47,775 bases of DNA from Thermoplasmata archaeon (GTDB lineage Archaea; Thermoplasmatota; Thermoplasmata; Methanomassiliicoccales; Methanomethylophilaceae). The stretch spans positions 1 through 47,775 of the forward strand of contig SUSZ01000012.1 of assembly GCA_015063165.1 (NCBI GenBank), written 5' to 3'. Below the pieces are notes generated by a model. It did no database searches. It was not told where the DNA came from and saw only the letters and a program-made list of their open reading frames with translations. This document shows positions 14,649-25,149 of this stretch, piece after piece; positions within the stretch are counted from its first letter, which is position 1, and each line of letters starts with the position of its first letter. Both the position numbers and the translations under genes were made by a program.

Positions 14649-14726
14649 TGGTAGCGAGGGGTCGATTTGAACGACCGGTCTCCGGGTTATGAGCCCGACG
14701 GGATATCCTGGCTACCCCACCTCGCT
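14649..14726 (-). tRNA. Initiator tRNA-Met (CAT), CCA encoded
   Basis: Read on the minus strand, the 5' end AGCGAGG pairs with CCTCGCT at the 3' end, followed by discriminator A and an encoded CCA (TGG at 14649-14651 on the plus strand). The anticodon stem-loop is GGG-CTCATAA-CCC with anticodon CAT. The three consecutive G-C pairs in the anticodon stem, and the A1 start typical of archaeal initiators, mark it as the initiator. The T arm (GGTCG-TTCAAAT-CGACC) is intact, and no intron is present. Confidence 0.95.
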
Positions 14727-20459: not shown

Positions 20460-20466
20460 TCAAACG

Positions 20467-20500
20467 GCGGGACCTTCCCGGTTCCGCTGCTTTCTTTTTT
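20467..20500 (+). terminator. Hairpin and T-run terminator after the DUF5611-like gene
   Basis: GCGGGACC (20467-20474) pairs with GGTTCCGC (20480-20487) over 8 positions, one of them G-U, with a 5-base loop. A T-rich run (20491-20500) follows. It insulates the ribosomal cluster from the upstream genes. Confidence 0.7.
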
Positions 20501-20553
20501 ATTAATACGTGCGCGCGTAATGTTTGCCAACGGGTAAGTTCATATACCAGTTG

Positions 20554-20561
20554 CTTATACC
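20554..20561 (+). promoter_or_regulatory. Promoter TATA box of the ribosomal protein supercluster
   Basis: CTTATACC, within the 10-mer GCTTATACCA (20553-20562), predicts transcription start at about 20580. A weaker TATA-like CATATACC lies at 20541-20548. The predicted start falls immediately before the first stem of the structured RNA. Confidence 0.55.
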
Positions 20562-20579
20562 ATCGCTTGGATTGGACAT

Positions 20580-20700
20580 AATAGTGTCCGACCAGACGTA
20601 TCGGGCAATGCGAAAGCAACCCACATCTCGCCGTCTTCCTTCGGGAATTCTGACGGCACATAGGCGTCACGGTCGGAGCATTAAGACGTTCGTCTGATAA
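20580..20700 (+). ncRNA. Three-way-junction structured RNA: candidate leader of the S10-spc cluster or independent ncRNA
   Basis: No ORF fits here, but the sequence folds strongly. The closing stem pairs TCCGACC (20587-20593) with GGTCGGA (20671-20677) and continues as GACG (20595-20598) with CGTC (20665-20668). One arm is GGG/CCC (20603-20605, 20620-20622) then TGC-GAAA-GCA (20609-20618), a GNRA tetraloop. The other arm is GCCGTC (20630-20635) with GACGGC (20652-20657), then TTCC-TTCG-GGAA (20636-20647), with the exceptionally stable C(UUCG)G cap and a 4-base bulge. A small hairpin AGACGTTCGTCT follows (20684-20695). It starts right at the predicted promoter start and lies 67 bases ahead of uL3. 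I match it to no known riboswitch. Confidence 0.6.
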
Positions 20701-20703
20701 ATC

Positions 20704-20728
20704 GCGAGGTTAGCGAAGAAACCCTCGC
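20704..20728 (+). promoter_or_regulatory. Hairpin just upstream of the uL3 start
   Basis: GCGAGG (20704-20709) pairs with CCTCGC (20723-20728) around a 13-base loop, ending 15 bases before the preferred uL3 ATG. It could mask or position the ribosome-binding region, as in ribosomal-protein feedback leaders, but no protein-binding motif can be named. Confidence 0.35.
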
Positions 20729-20743
20729 AGGTATGTGTCAAAT

Positions 20744-21784
20744 ATGCCACAAAGAAGACGTCCTAAGAGAGGATCTAGGGCATACGGCCCTAGGAAGAGA
20801 GCAAAGTCGCAGACCCCAAGGCTCGACTCTTGGCCCGAGATCAGCGGTACCCCCAAAATCCAGGGATTCGCTGGTTACAAGGCCGGCATGACCCATGCGC
20901 TCATAGTGGACAGCCGCGCCAAGAGCACCACCTCCGGACTCGAAGTCCAGGTGCCCGTCACCGTCGTGGAAGTCCCCCCTATGAAGATCGCAGCGGTCAG
21001 GTTCTACGAGAACAGCATTCTCGGCCTGAAGACCGCTGGCGAGGTATGGGCCAACGATCTCGATTCCCTCCTGTCGAGGCGCATGTGCCTCCCCAAGAGC
21101 GGAGCAGAGACCGAGGGCGACGCCCCCGCAGAGAAGGCCAAATACAACGAGGCAAGCTTCGCCAGGTACGACGGACTGGACATCGAGGATGTCCGCGTTC
21201 TCGCGTACACCCAGCCCAAGATGGTCTCCGGAGTCCCCAAGAAGGTCCCCGACATCATGGAGCTGAGGATCGGCGGAGGAACCATCGACGAGAGGGTCGC
21301 CTACGCTAAGAGCATACTCGGAACCGAGGTTTCCTTCGACAACTTCGTCGCCGAGGGCGCGCTGATCGATGTGATCGCCGTCACCAAAGGAAAGGGATTC
21401 CAGGGAGTTACCAAGCGCTGGGGAGTCAAGCTTCTGTCCCACAGGAACAGCAAGCACCGCCGCGGAATCGGTAACCTCGGACCTAAGAGACCCGGCTACG
21501 TGAGATCCACCGTTCCCGGATCCGGTCAGATGGGATACCACCAGAGAACCGAGTTCAACAAGAAGATCGTCAAGGTCGGAGCCGACGGAGCAGAGGTCAC
21601 CCCCAAGGGAGGCTTCATCAACTATGGCGAGGTCAGGAACACCTACGTCCTCGTCCACGGATCCGTCCCCGGACCCACCAAGAGGCTCATCAGGTTCAGA
21701 GACGCCACCAGGGCTCCCAAGAAGGCCAGCATGGATGCCGTCGAAGTCACCTACGTCTCCACCGATTCTAAGCAGGGGGCATGA
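20744..21784 (+). CDS. rpl3: 50S ribosomal protein uL3
   Basis: This 346-residue protein is archaeal/eukaryotic-type uL3, which reaches the peptidyl transferase centre. The N-terminus MPQRRRPKRGSRAYGPRKRA matches the archaeal family, so the ATG at 20744 is preferred over a GTG three codons upstream. Conserved segments include GFAGYKAGMTH, KGKGFQGVTKRWGV and the NRKIVKVG-like region near the C-terminus. It is the first gene of the S10-spc cluster and is preceded by a long structured leader. Confidence 0.95.
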   Translation: MPQRRRPKRGSRAYGPRKRAKSQTPRLDSWPEISGTPKIQGFAGYKAGMTHALIVDSRAKSTTSGLEVQVPVTVVEVPPMKIAAVRFYENSILGLKTAGEVWANDLDSLLSRRMCLPKSGAETEGDAPAEKAKYNEASFARYDGLDIEDVRVLAYTQPKMVSGVPKKVPDIMELRIGGGTIDERVAYAKSILGTEVSFDNFVAEGALIDVIAVTKGKGFQGVTKRWGVKLLSHRNSKHRRGIGNLGPKRPGYVRSTVPGSGQMGYHQRTEFNKKIVKVGADGAEVTPKGGFINYGEVRNTYVLVHGSVPGPTKRLIRFRDATRAPKKASMDAVEVTYVSTDSKQGA

Positions 21785-21788
21785 GTAA

Positions 21789-22565
21789 ATGGCAACCACT
21801 AACGTCTATTCAGTCAGCGGAGCAGTCGCAGAGACCATCGAGGTTCCTGCCGTGTTCACCACCCCCTACAGGCCTGACATAATCAAGAAGGCAGTCCTCG
21901 CCGCGGCAGCCAACAAGAGGCAGCCCTACGGACCCGCTCCCGGAGCAGGAATGAGGCACTCCGTCAGCACCTGGGGAAAGGGACGCGGAACCGCCCGTGT
22001 TCAGCGTGTCCACGACGGCAGGAAGGCCACCGAATCGCCCAACAACGTCTCCGGAAGGAGAGCGCACCCTCCAGTCCCCGAGAGGATCTGGGACCAGAAA
22101 GTCAACAAGAAAGAGCTGAAGATCGCTCGCCAGTCCGCAGTCGCAGCCACCGGCCGCGCAGCATGCGTCAAAGCACGCGGACACAAGTTCGACGACGCAG
22201 TCACCTTCCCCATCGTGGTCGATGACGCCTTCGCCGACATCAAAGCAACCTCCGAGGTCATCGATCTGTTCGAGAAGATCGGAATCGGATACGACCTCGA
22301 CCGCGCAAAGGACGGACGCAAGATCCGCGCCGGAAGGGGAACCATGAGGAACAGGAAGTACCGCACCCCCGTCTCCGTTCTCGTCGTCGTGAAGGACGAT
22401 GAGAGGGCCGCACCCATCTTCAAGAGCGCATCCAACATCCCTGGAGTCACTATCGAGGAGGTCAAGACCCTCAACACCAGCATCCTGGCACCCGGAGGAG
22501 ACGCAGGAAGGCTCACCGTCTACACTAAATCCGCAATCGAAGCACTGGGAGGCTGGACAGAATGA
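21789..22565 (+). CDS. rpl4: 50S ribosomal protein uL4
   Basis: This 258-residue archaeal uL4 lines the peptide exit tunnel with its extended loop. The tunnel-loop region is recognisable as RHSVSTWGKGRGTARVQRV and RRAHPPVPERIWDQKVNKKE. It starts 4 bases after uL3 and overlaps uL23 by ATGA. In bacteria uL4 represses the S10 operon through its leader; whether the archaeal protein does so here is unknown, though the leader is structured. Confidence 0.95.
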   Translation: MATTNVYSVSGAVAETIEVPAVFTTPYRPDIIKKAVLAAAANKRQPYGPAPGAGMRHSVSTWGKGRGTARVQRVHDGRKATESPNNVSGRRAHPPVPERIWDQKVNKKELKIARQSAVAATGRAACVKARGHKFDDAVTFPIVVDDAFADIKATSEVIDLFEKIGIGYDLDRAKDGRKIRAGRGTMRNRKYRTPVSVLVVVKDDERAAPIFKSASNIPGVTIEEVKTLNTSILAPGGDAGRLTVYTKSAIEALGGWTE

Positions 22566-22819
22566 AGCAGAGCGATGTCCTCATCAGCCCTTACTACACA
22601 GAGAAAGCGATGAACCACAAGGACGCCAACAAGATCGAGTTCATCGTCCACAGGAAAGCCGATAAGCCCGCCATCAAAGCCGCCGTCGAAGCCCGCTTCG
22701 AGGTCAAGGTCGAGAAGGTCTGGGTCAGAATCCAGAAGGACGGAAAGCACGCGATCATCAAGCTCGCGGACGGATATTCCGCAGAGGAAGTCGGTTCCAG
22801 AGTCGGAGTCATGTACTGA
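22562..22819 (+). CDS. rpl23: 50S ribosomal protein uL23
   Basis: This 85-residue protein sits beside the exit tunnel and docks SRP and the translocon. The pattern SDVLISPYYTEKAMNHKDANKIEFIVHRKADKP is typical, followed by the V(K)VEKVWVRI strand. The length is usual for archaea. It overlaps uL4 by 4 bases. Confidence 0.95.
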   Translation: MKQSDVLISPYYTEKAMNHKDANKIEFIVHRKADKPAIKAAVEARFEVKVEKVWVRIQKDGKHAIIKLADGYSAEEVGSRVGVMY

Positions 22820-22830
22820 GGGTGAGTGAA

Positions 22831-23526
22831 ATGGGAAAGAGATTAATCACACAGAGGAGGGGCCGCGGAACCTCGTTGTACCGCTCGCCCAGCCACAGAC
22901 ACGTGGACGATGTCAGGCTTCCCGCGATCCCCGAGGGGACCGCAATCATCAAGGACCTCATCCAGGCTCCTGGAAGGACCTGCCCTCTGGCAGTCCTCGA
23001 CATCAACGGAAGGACCGACTACCAGCTCGCAGTCGAGGGAACCAAGGTCGGACAGACCATCCTCATCGGCGGAGACGTCGTCGCAGCCGGAAACATCTCC
23101 GAGCTCGCCAAGATCCCTGAGGGAACCCTCATCAACAACATCGAGGCAAGGCCCGGAGACGGAGGAAAGTTCGTCAAGACCGCAGGATCCAGCGCCACCG
23201 TCGTCTCCAGAGGAGAGAAGGTCATGGTGCAGATGCCCTCCGGAGTAATCAAAGAGTTCAGCCCTACCTGCCGCGCCGTCATCGGAGTCGTCGCTGGAGG
23301 AGGAAGGGGAGACAAGCCCCTGGCGAAAGCGGGAAAGAACGTCCTGACCCTCAGGTCCAGGTCCACCGCCGCTTTCAAGACCAAGGGTGTCGCCATGAAC
23401 CCTGTCGACCACCCCCACGGAGGAGGAAGCCACGCTCACGTCGGAGGCCCCAACTGTCAGAAGAGAACCGCATCGACCGGTCAGAAGGTAGGATTCCTGC
23501 CTCCTAAGAAGAAAGTTAAGAAGTGA
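22831..23526 (+). CDS. rpl2: 50S ribosomal protein uL2
   Basis: This 231-residue protein binds near the peptidyl transferase centre and bridges to the small subunit. Archaeal-type features are MGKRLITQRRGRGTSLYRSPSHRH at the N-terminus and the conserved MNPVDHPHGGGSHAHVG loop near the end, with its functional histidines. The ATG at 22831 follows GGGTGAG at a good distance, so it is preferred over GTG at 22822. Confidence 0.95.
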   Translation: MGKRLITQRRGRGTSLYRSPSHRHVDDVRLPAIPEGTAIIKDLIQAPGRTCPLAVLDINGRTDYQLAVEGTKVGQTILIGGDVVAAGNISELAKIPEGTLINNIEARPGDGGKFVKTAGSSATVVSRGEKVMVQMPSGVIKEFSPTCRAVIGVVAGGGRGDKPLAKAGKNVLTLRSRSTAAFKTKGVAMNPVDHPHGGGSHAHVGGPNCQKRTASTGQKVGFLPPKKKVKK

Positions 23527-23531
23527 TTGCA

Positions 23532-23999
23532 ATGGCAAAGAAGATTATTGCAGGATCGGCAAAGGCCTCGAGGAGGAAGTCCAGGAAGAAAGCATCCGCA
23601 ATCCAGGCGAGGAGGAAGAAGGAGTTCCTCTTCCGTGGATTCAACATGGAGGAGCTTCTGTCCATGCCCTTCGACGACATACTCGGACTCCTGCCTTCCA
23701 GGGCAAGGAGGACGTACCTCCGCGGACTCAACTACGAGCAGCAGCTCCTTTACGACAAGCTCGTGAAGGCTGAGCCCGGAGCAGTCGTCAGGACCCACCG
23801 CAGGGACCTGCCTATCGTGCCCCAGTTCGTCGGAAAGACCGTCAGCATATACAACGGAAAAGAATTCAAGGACGTTGAGATCAAGCCCGAGATGATCGGA
23901 TGCTTCCTCGGTGAGTTCGCTGTCACCAGGAAGGCTCCTCAGCACTCCGGACCCGGAGTCGGTGCTACCAGATCCTCGAAGTTCATGCCGCTCAAGTGA
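23532..23999 (+). CDS. rps19: 30S ribosomal protein uS19
   Basis: This 155-residue protein of the 30S head matches archaeal uS19, with FLFRGFNMEELLSMPFDDILGLLPSRARR and the C-terminal VGKTVSIYNGKEF ... HSGPGVGATRSSKFMPLK. The N-terminal 20 residues are strongly basic. The ATG at 23532 is used; an in-frame GTG three codons earlier is the alternative. Confidence 0.94.
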   Translation: MAKKIIAGSAKASRRKSRKKASAIQARRKKEFLFRGFNMEELLSMPFDDILGLLPSRARRTYLRGLNYEQQLLYDKLVKAEPGAVVRTHRRDLPIVPQFVGKTVSIYNGKEFKDVEIKPEMIGCFLGEFAVTRKAPQHSGPGVGATRSSKFMPLK

Positions 24000-24008
24000 G
24001 GTGAAGTC

Positions 24009-24458
24009 ATGGTTTCAGGATACACAGCAGTAGCAGACCCCGACACGACTGCAAAGGCCCTTGGAAAGGAGATGCCCGTCTCCCCCAAGTTCGCTCGCGA
24101 GGTCGCGGGAATGATTCGCGGAATGAAAGTCGAGGCCGCCAGGAAGGCTCTGGAGGACGTCATCGCCAAGAAGAGGCCCGTCCCCCTCAAGAGATACAAC
24201 AAGCGCGTCTCCCACAAGCCCGGCGTCGGTCCCGGAAGGTACCCCGTCAAGGCAGCAAAGCACATCCTCGGTGTCCTCAACAGCGCCGCTTCCAACGCGG
24301 AGTTCAAGGGACTCGAGGTTTCGAACATGGCGATCTCCACCATCTCCGTCTCCAGGGGACGCACCATACCCGGACACATGCCCAGGGCACACGGACGCGC
24401 CACCCCGTGGAACCAGGAGACCGTGAACCTCGAGATCATCATCCAGGAGGTTGAGTGA
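24009..24458 (+). CDS. rpl22: 50S ribosomal protein uL22
   Basis: This 149-residue archaeal uL22 contributes a beta-hairpin to the exit tunnel. Clear segments are KFAREVAGMIRGMKVEAARKALEDVI, GRYPVKAAKHILGVLNSAASNAEFKGL and RGRTIPGHMPRAHGRATPWN. A GAGGTGAA ribosome-binding sequence (23998-24005) precedes the ATG. Confidence 0.95.
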   Translation: MVSGYTAVADPDTTAKALGKEMPVSPKFAREVAGMIRGMKVEAARKALEDVIAKKRPVPLKRYNKRVSHKPGVGPGRYPVKAAKHILGVLNSAASNAEFKGLEVSNMAISTISVSRGRTIPGHMPRAHGRATPWNQETVNLEIIIQEVE

Positions 24459-24459
24459 A

Positions 24460-25149
24460 ATGGCATCAGAGAGAAAGTTCGTTGCCGAGAACGTCCGCAG
24501 GGTCCTCCTCAAGGAGTACCTCATGAAAGAGGTCAGCCGTGCGGGATTCGGTGGACTCGACGTCCAGAGGACCCCCATGGGAACCCGTGTCGTGCTCACC
24601 ACCGAGAGGCCCGGACTCGTCATCGGAAGGCGCGGTCAGACCATCAAGAACCTGACCACCGTCATCGAGGAGCGCTTCGGCTTCGAGAACCCCCAGATCG
24701 AGGTTCAGGAAGTCAAGAACCCCAGTCTTAACGCACAGATCATGGCCGAGAAGCTGGCCTTCTCCCTCGAGAGGGGATGGCACTTCCGCAGAGCAGGACA
24801 CTCCACGGTCCGCAGGATCATGGACGCCGGCGCCCGCGGATGCCACATCATCGTGGCAGGCAAGCTGACCGGACAGAGGCACAGAACCGAGAAGTTCAAA
24901 GAGGGATACATAAAGTTCTGCGGAGAGCCCAAAGCAAACTTCATCGACCACGGATACGCGGTCGCGAAGCTGAAGATGGGCGTCATCGGAGTGACCGTCG
25001 AGATCATGGACGAGCACGCCAAGCTCCCTGCAGACATCACCGTCATGAACAAGACCGAGGCCGCATCCCTGCTCCCCGACCTGTTCGCCGCCCCCGCCGA
25101 GGCCGCGGCTCCCGTCGAGGAAGCAGCCGAATCCCAGGAGGGACAGTGA
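24460..25149 (+). CDS. rps3: 30S ribosomal protein uS3
   Basis: This 229-residue protein lines the mRNA entry tunnel. The N-terminal KH domain carries LVIGRRGQTIKNLT, and the C-terminal uS3 domain follows. An alanine/glutamate-rich tail (PAEAAAPVEEAAESQEGQ-like) ends the protein, common in archaeal forms. The ATG at 24460 follows the uL22 stop by one base and lies behind GGAGGTTGAG. The last base of its stop codon is the first base of the uL29 start. Confidence 0.95.
   Translation: MASERKFVAENVRRVLLKEYLMKEVSRAGFGGLDVQRTPMGTRVVLTTERPGLVIGRRGQTIKNLTTVIEERFGFENPQIEVQEVKNPSLNAQIMAEKLAFSLERGWHFRRAGHSTVRRIMDAGARGCHIIVAGKLTGQRHRTEKFKEGYIKFCGEPKANFIDHGYAVAKLKMGVIGVTVEIMDEHAKLPADITVMNKTEAASLLPDLFAAPAEAAAPVEEAAESQEGQ

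Follow-up and report, generated by a model that had tools for sequence, protein, structure and literature searches.

The window analysed here, 47,775 nt of contig SUSZ01000012.1 from a Thermoplasmata archaeon of the family Methanomethylophilaceae, carries a ribosomal-protein operon whose first gene is uL3 (rpl3, 20744..21784; archaeal 50S L3, E 9e-133), and the terminator-like hairpin, promoter, leader and operon features described in the following lie on the plus strand. The downstream operon genes encode uL4, uL23, uL2, uS19, uL22 and uS3 (21789..25149), which are at the same time candidate ligands of the leader RNA described below. On the other side, the operon is preceded by RaSEA, an archaeosine radical-SAM gene, and an ORF of 111 aa without NCBIfam match. 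A GC-rich hairpin with a T run behind it (20465..20489, within the stretch 20465-20499) resembles an intrinsic terminator and represents the probable end of this upstream transcription unit. It is the sole terminator-like site in 20460-20760, compared to a mean of 0.1 in shuffles, and none was found between the leader RNA and uL3 in the window. The only Rfam gathering-level match of the window is a tRNA gene on the minus strand (14652-14726). A 16S rRNA gene was not found in the assembly despite its completeness score of 99.86%; the 23S rRNA gene is located on contig C22.

The leader RNA is built around a three-way-junction core (20587..20677) that is supported by its folding energy, by covariation and by a covariance model match at 20583-20679. 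With -38.0 kcal/mol the junction folds considerably better than its dinucleotide shuffles (-25.1 ± 3.5 kcal/mol; z = -3.75), none of 200 of which reached this value, and the entire 165 bases of 20580-20744 still give a z of -2.96. The core is closed by stem P1 (20587-20593/20671-20677), which is separated by an A/AC internal loop from P2 (20595-20599/20664-20668), followed by the GAAA-capped arm P3 (20603-20622; 20603-20605/20620-20622 with 20609-20611/20616-20618) and the C(UUCG)G-capped arm P4 (20630-20657; 20630-20639/20644-20657), the latter featuring a 3' bulge UUCU at 20648-20651. A small hairpin AGACGUUCGUCU (20684..20695) follows, which is lineage-specific and differs among genera. An initial sequence-only reading had proposed a strongly folded three-way junction at this position; the fold statistics bear this out and all of its stems, namely P1, P2, both capped arms and two small hairpins, are present where it had placed them. 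Its outline of the leader was nevertheless incomplete, as it lacked one hairpin at the 5' end, P0, and one at the start codon, P6.

Inclusion of P0 follows from the position of the promoter. In 77/77 family members, a TTTAWATA-like 8-mer (at least 7/8 match) starts 28-31 nt upstream of a conserved RGATT, and the base preceding RGATT is mostly a pyrimidine (-1). From this spacing, the TATA box of the uL3 operon is assigned to TTCATATA at 20539..20546 and transcription is predicted to start at the R of RGATT, around 20569..20570, for which transcript data are not at hand. The box assumed previously (CTTATACC, 20554-20561) is only weakly conserved and would be situated at about -12, some 15 nt away from the one assigned here, whereby the start, formerly put at the base of P1, shifts by about 15 nt as well. 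The leader therefore also takes in P0 (20574..20589; 20574-20578/20585-20589), a GGACA/UGUCC hairpin assessed within the window's family only, in which 84% of the cells pair and three pairs show two-sided changes, one of them with 15. Since 20587-20589 are common to both, P0 and P1 compete, and a strand-exchange switch may be built on this competition, which remains a possibility read from the bases and is not established.

Between the junction and uL3, two further hairpins were identified. P5 (20704..20728; fold z -2.84) has the form GCGAGR-UUAGCGAAGANAC-YCUCGC, with 99.6% of its stem cells paired and two-sided changes in 4/6 pairs in the family. Its conserved 13-nt loop UUAGCGAAGANAC is nearly invariant in the window's family and possibly serves as a second protein site or as a site of tertiary contact. 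A stretch akin to this loop, GUUAGCG..AAGAGA, recurs in other Methanomassiliicoccales families. The start-codon hairpin P6 (20730..20748; 20730-20736/20742-20748; -7.6 kcal/mol, z -2.81) includes the uL3 AUG, which is at least partly paired in the predicted folds of 67/79 family members. P6 comprises 7 bp, and within the family its left arm varies along with codon 2 and the flanking bases (GGUAUGU/AUAUGCC, GGUGUGA/UCAUGCC, UGUGA/UCACA).

None of the families in Rfam 15 matches the leader. The search returned one irrelevant chance hit downstream at E <= 10 for the locus in the window and one chance sub-threshold snoRNA hit at E <= 1 in 20 relatives, which confirms the earlier statement that the RNA corresponds to no known riboswitch. 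Archaeal RNase P RNA (RF00373) was also considered and rejected, because the leader does not match it and the RNase P RNA of this genome is found on another contig.

The stems proved to be strongly supported by covariation. In 80 phylum-wide sequences, 94.7% of the cells pair and 14/21 pairs show two-sided change, adding up to 247 two-sided cells against a shuffle mean of 69.8, a count reached by 0/500 shuffles; in slid controls of this alignment, pairing drops to 33-41%. Because the model structure guided the fitting of alignments A3 and A4, their pairing percentages lean toward it. This does not apply to the plain MAFFT alignment A2 of 54 family members, in which 95.9% of the cells are paired and two-sided changes number 44, vs 12.7 in shuffles, nor to the independent gene-context evidence. 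Conservation of the stems in relatives, the check on which the sequence-only reading had made its proposal depend, was thus passed decisively, and the r-leader (ribosomal-protein leader) criterion of a secondary structure backed by covariation is met. In some relatives fold energy alone is not significant (z -0.86 in L167), and there the case rests on covariation.

The CCA.AC/GU.ACGG sequences flanking the A/AC internal loop are invariant or nearly so, and the GGG/CCC at the base of P3 is invariant in 76/76 distinct sequences; a few divergent copies outside the 80-sequence alignment vary even these, such as L317 with UUGG/CCAA. The acidophiles L167, L170, L181 and L319-L321 carry a U-A pair in P2 where others have G-C (CCAUAC/GUGUAACGG), which is a clade-specific compensatory change. 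It might be argued that such an RNA is a constitutive structure of the 5' UTR without any regulator, kept for mRNA stability or translation enhancement at high expression. Highly expressed mRNAs can indeed carry stabilising 5' structures, and no ligand or regulation has been shown for the leader, yet the invariant internal loops and P3 pairs, together with lineage-specific hairpins at the start site, exceed the needs of stability, and we regard this explanation as most unlikely.

To follow its distribution, we used a covariance model R1, built from the junctions of 54 family members only, and a second model R2 built from a phylum-wide sequence set. The RNA is present in 81/81 readable uL3 upstream regions of Methanomethylophilaceae, the window's family. 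Searched genome-wide over the order Methanomassiliicoccales, R1 detected it in 128/147 genomes, including 74/74 of good quality, as a single copy each, the sole second match being a fragment at a contig edge. At class level, R1 found it in 215/400 genomes with strict filters and in 29/30 chosen genomes with looser ones, and at phylum level in 167/295 genomes. The class and phylum counts are lower bounds, as R2 recovered 8/8 held-out relatives that had escaped R1 (E 7e-11 to 5e-7), each with a visible copy upstream of uL3. Going by these matches, most of the genomes sampled from the phylum Thermoplasmatota contain the RNA, with Ferroplasma acidarmanus Fer1, Acidiplasma aeolicum, Candidatus Methanomethylophilus sp. 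1R26, Methanomassiliicoccus sp. and Poseidoniales MAGs among its carriers. No such RNA was found upstream of uL3 in six genomes of one family of the class (f14; L311-L316), an apparent case of loss or replacement, so that the RNA is dispensable somewhere. The uL3 genes of f14 have short TATA-to-ATG leaders without the RNA.

No confident match with context read departs from the linkage to uL3. At 73/75 context-checked loci, uL3 lies directly downstream on the same strand, and the two exceptions, L187 and L188, are weak off-target matches (E 0.1-0.4). The 75 loci include 68 from outside the window's family, confident or weak (down to E 0.115), and all 68 have uL3 in this position. A DNA pattern scan of genome contigs, made blind to uL3, returned 118 loci, 105 of which sit 83-184 nt 5' of uL3; of the other 13, nine reach the end of the available stretch and four, outside the phylum, are due to chance. 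The bacterial and Methanospirillum pattern matches L202, L210, L238 and L268 were dismissed as chance for want of a uL3 gene at the locus and for weak model scores, L238 being additionally located within an open reading frame. Outside Thermoplasmatota, presence was judged by this pattern scan alone. A consistent 5' UTR position before ribosomal-protein genes, the second r-leader criterion, is therewith met.

The distance between junction and start codon differs by lineage. In AT-rich acidophile relatives, 6-14 nt separate the junction from the AUG, and it adjoins or overlaps the Shine-Dalgarno sequence. In family f22, to which Ferroplasma probably belongs, this distance is 6-12 nt and the Shine-Dalgarno sequence, e.g. 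GGUUGGUGAUAUAAAAUG, either overlaps the 3' strand of P1 or comes after it, and in family f18 a GAGGUGA stands immediately after the junction. These assignments are supported by the anti-Shine-Dalgarno sequence GGAUCACCUCC at the 16S 3' end, confirmed in four 16S genes. Methanomassiliicoccales have a further 56-99 nt between junction and AUG, a stretch that contains P5 and P6 in the window's family; in other families of the order, CUCUC segments have two possible partners, a GAGAG further upstream and the Shine-Dalgarno GAGAGGG. A constant junction with platforms varying by lineage is as expected of a conserved binding domain with varied translational outputs. The position also fits the transcription start and the ribosome-binding site, a further r-leader criterion that is met on sequence signals only, without transcript data.

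This arrangement bears on the proposal of a free small RNA, also put forward in the initial reading, which would be ~110-170 nt long, encoded between the promoter and uL3, and act in trans. Such an RNA would fit with how very strongly the sequences of P3 and the internal loops are conserved (GGG/CCC in 76/76). It would be expected to form a context-independent gene or to possess its own terminator, neither of which is met: the confident matches with context read are single-copy and directly 5' of uL3 across the phylum, the acidophile copy stops 6-14 nt from the AUG with the Shine-Dalgarno sequence in or next to P1, and no terminator-like site precedes uL3 in the window. Together with the covariation, this disfavours the free small RNA, which we consider very unlikely, and supports the feedback leader that had been named as the other option.

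We therefore judge the RNA likely to be a cis-acting leader through which a ribosomal protein exerts feedback on the translation of uL3-uL4-uL23-uL2-uS19-uL22-uS3: a protein encoded in the operon would bind the junction, and the ribosome-binding site would be blocked. Conservation, structure, position, single-copy linkage and the geometry of promoter and ribosome-binding site are observed; protein binding, the identity of the protein and the repression of translation are all inferred from position and precedent. Transcription would begin at ~20569 and the nascent mRNA would fold the three-way junction, to which an operon-encoded ribosomal protein in excess over free rRNA would bind, uL4 by precedent and possibly uL3 or uL2. 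The bound and stabilised RNA would then stop 30S loading at the adjoining ribosome-binding site. With P1 beside or overlapping the Shine-Dalgarno sequence, the acidophile ribosome-binding site would be blocked directly; Methanomassiliicoccales would relay the effect via added hairpins masking the start codon (window's family) or the Shine-Dalgarno sequence (other families).

The RNA might instead be a riboswitch or another sensor that adjusts ribosome output to a small metabolite or ion, and neither this nor another trans ligand is excluded. A compact junction whose unpaired nucleotides include invariant ones, Shine-Dalgarno and start-codon hairpins and the competing pairing of P0 and P1 all recall translational riboswitches. 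Metabolite riboswitches usually serve several operons, however, and this RNA was found before one ribosomal operon only, none of the loci read having it in front of a metabolic or transport gene. As such operons are furthermore usually controlled through feedback by one of their own proteins (Eckert and Weinberg 2020, PMC7247131), we consider a riboswitch unlikely and retain the protein-bound leader as our preferred interpretation.

Which protein would be bound is a more tentative matter. No credible match to 23S or 16S rRNA was obtained with R1 and R2 with filters off, nor for the A/AC internal loop searched in rRNA, so that no ligand is identified by resemblance. A 23S stretch GGGCAAUCC resembling P3 and an AGCGAAG resembling the P5 loop are short matches expected by chance in 2.9 kb and were discarded. 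Imitation of the ligand's rRNA site, a common but not required trait of r-leaders, is not met; several accepted r-leaders lack it as well (PMC7247131). The best ligand predictor is held to be a protein already known as leader ligand elsewhere (Eckert and Weinberg, PMC7247131), which is why uL4 is our first candidate, an assignment by analogy that we hold at clearly less than even confidence. By the same reasoning, uL3 and uL2 would come next, without binding data for either.

In E. coli, the ribosomal protein L4 binds the S10 leader and thereby feeds back on the operon that encodes it; that operon begins with S10, and transcription attenuation is also involved. Both RNAs are 5' leaders of operons encoding L3, L4, L23 and L2, but the search revealed no relation in sequence or structure to the Thermoplasmatota RNA (no Rfam 15 match). 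Among known elements, the closest is the L4 r-leader candidate located before rplC, rplD, rplW and rplB, which has been described from Archaeoglobi alone and was considered borderline there (PMC7247131). Like the Thermoplasmatota RNA, which is backed by strong covariation, it precedes uL3, uL4, uL23 and uL2; that the two are homologous has been neither shown nor ruled out. Archaeal S15 and eL15 r-leaders are also known, the S15 ones imitating a three-stem 16S rRNA junction (PMC7247131). These are likewise archaeal ribosomal-protein leaders, but belong to other genes and lineages, and the Thermoplasmatota junction has no detectable 16S/23S similarity. No paper on a uL3 leader RNA of Thermoplasmatota was found in the open-access literature, subscription journals and supplements not being covered. 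Within these limits, r-leaders are known as a kind and the phylum-wide Thermoplasmatota family appears to be new.

Little is known about how archaea balance ribosomal-protein synthesis, and no more than four archaeal r-leader candidates have been listed, which were called rare opportunities (Eckert and Weinberg, PMC7247131). With a whole phylum, the reach of the present RNA is far broader than that of most r-leaders, and its covariation is strong. As it occurs in cultured organisms, e.g. Ferroplasma acidarmanus, ligand and mechanism are directly testable. On balance, we lean towards a protein-binding leader of ancient origin, which the common ancestor of Thermoplasmatota probably already had. 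It would control translation of the uL3 operon, and its sensing domain would have been kept while the downstream platform was rebuilt, as direct Shine-Dalgarno occlusion, Shine-Dalgarno hairpin or start-codon hairpin. The swapped platforms represent a natural series for the evolution of archaeal translational switches.
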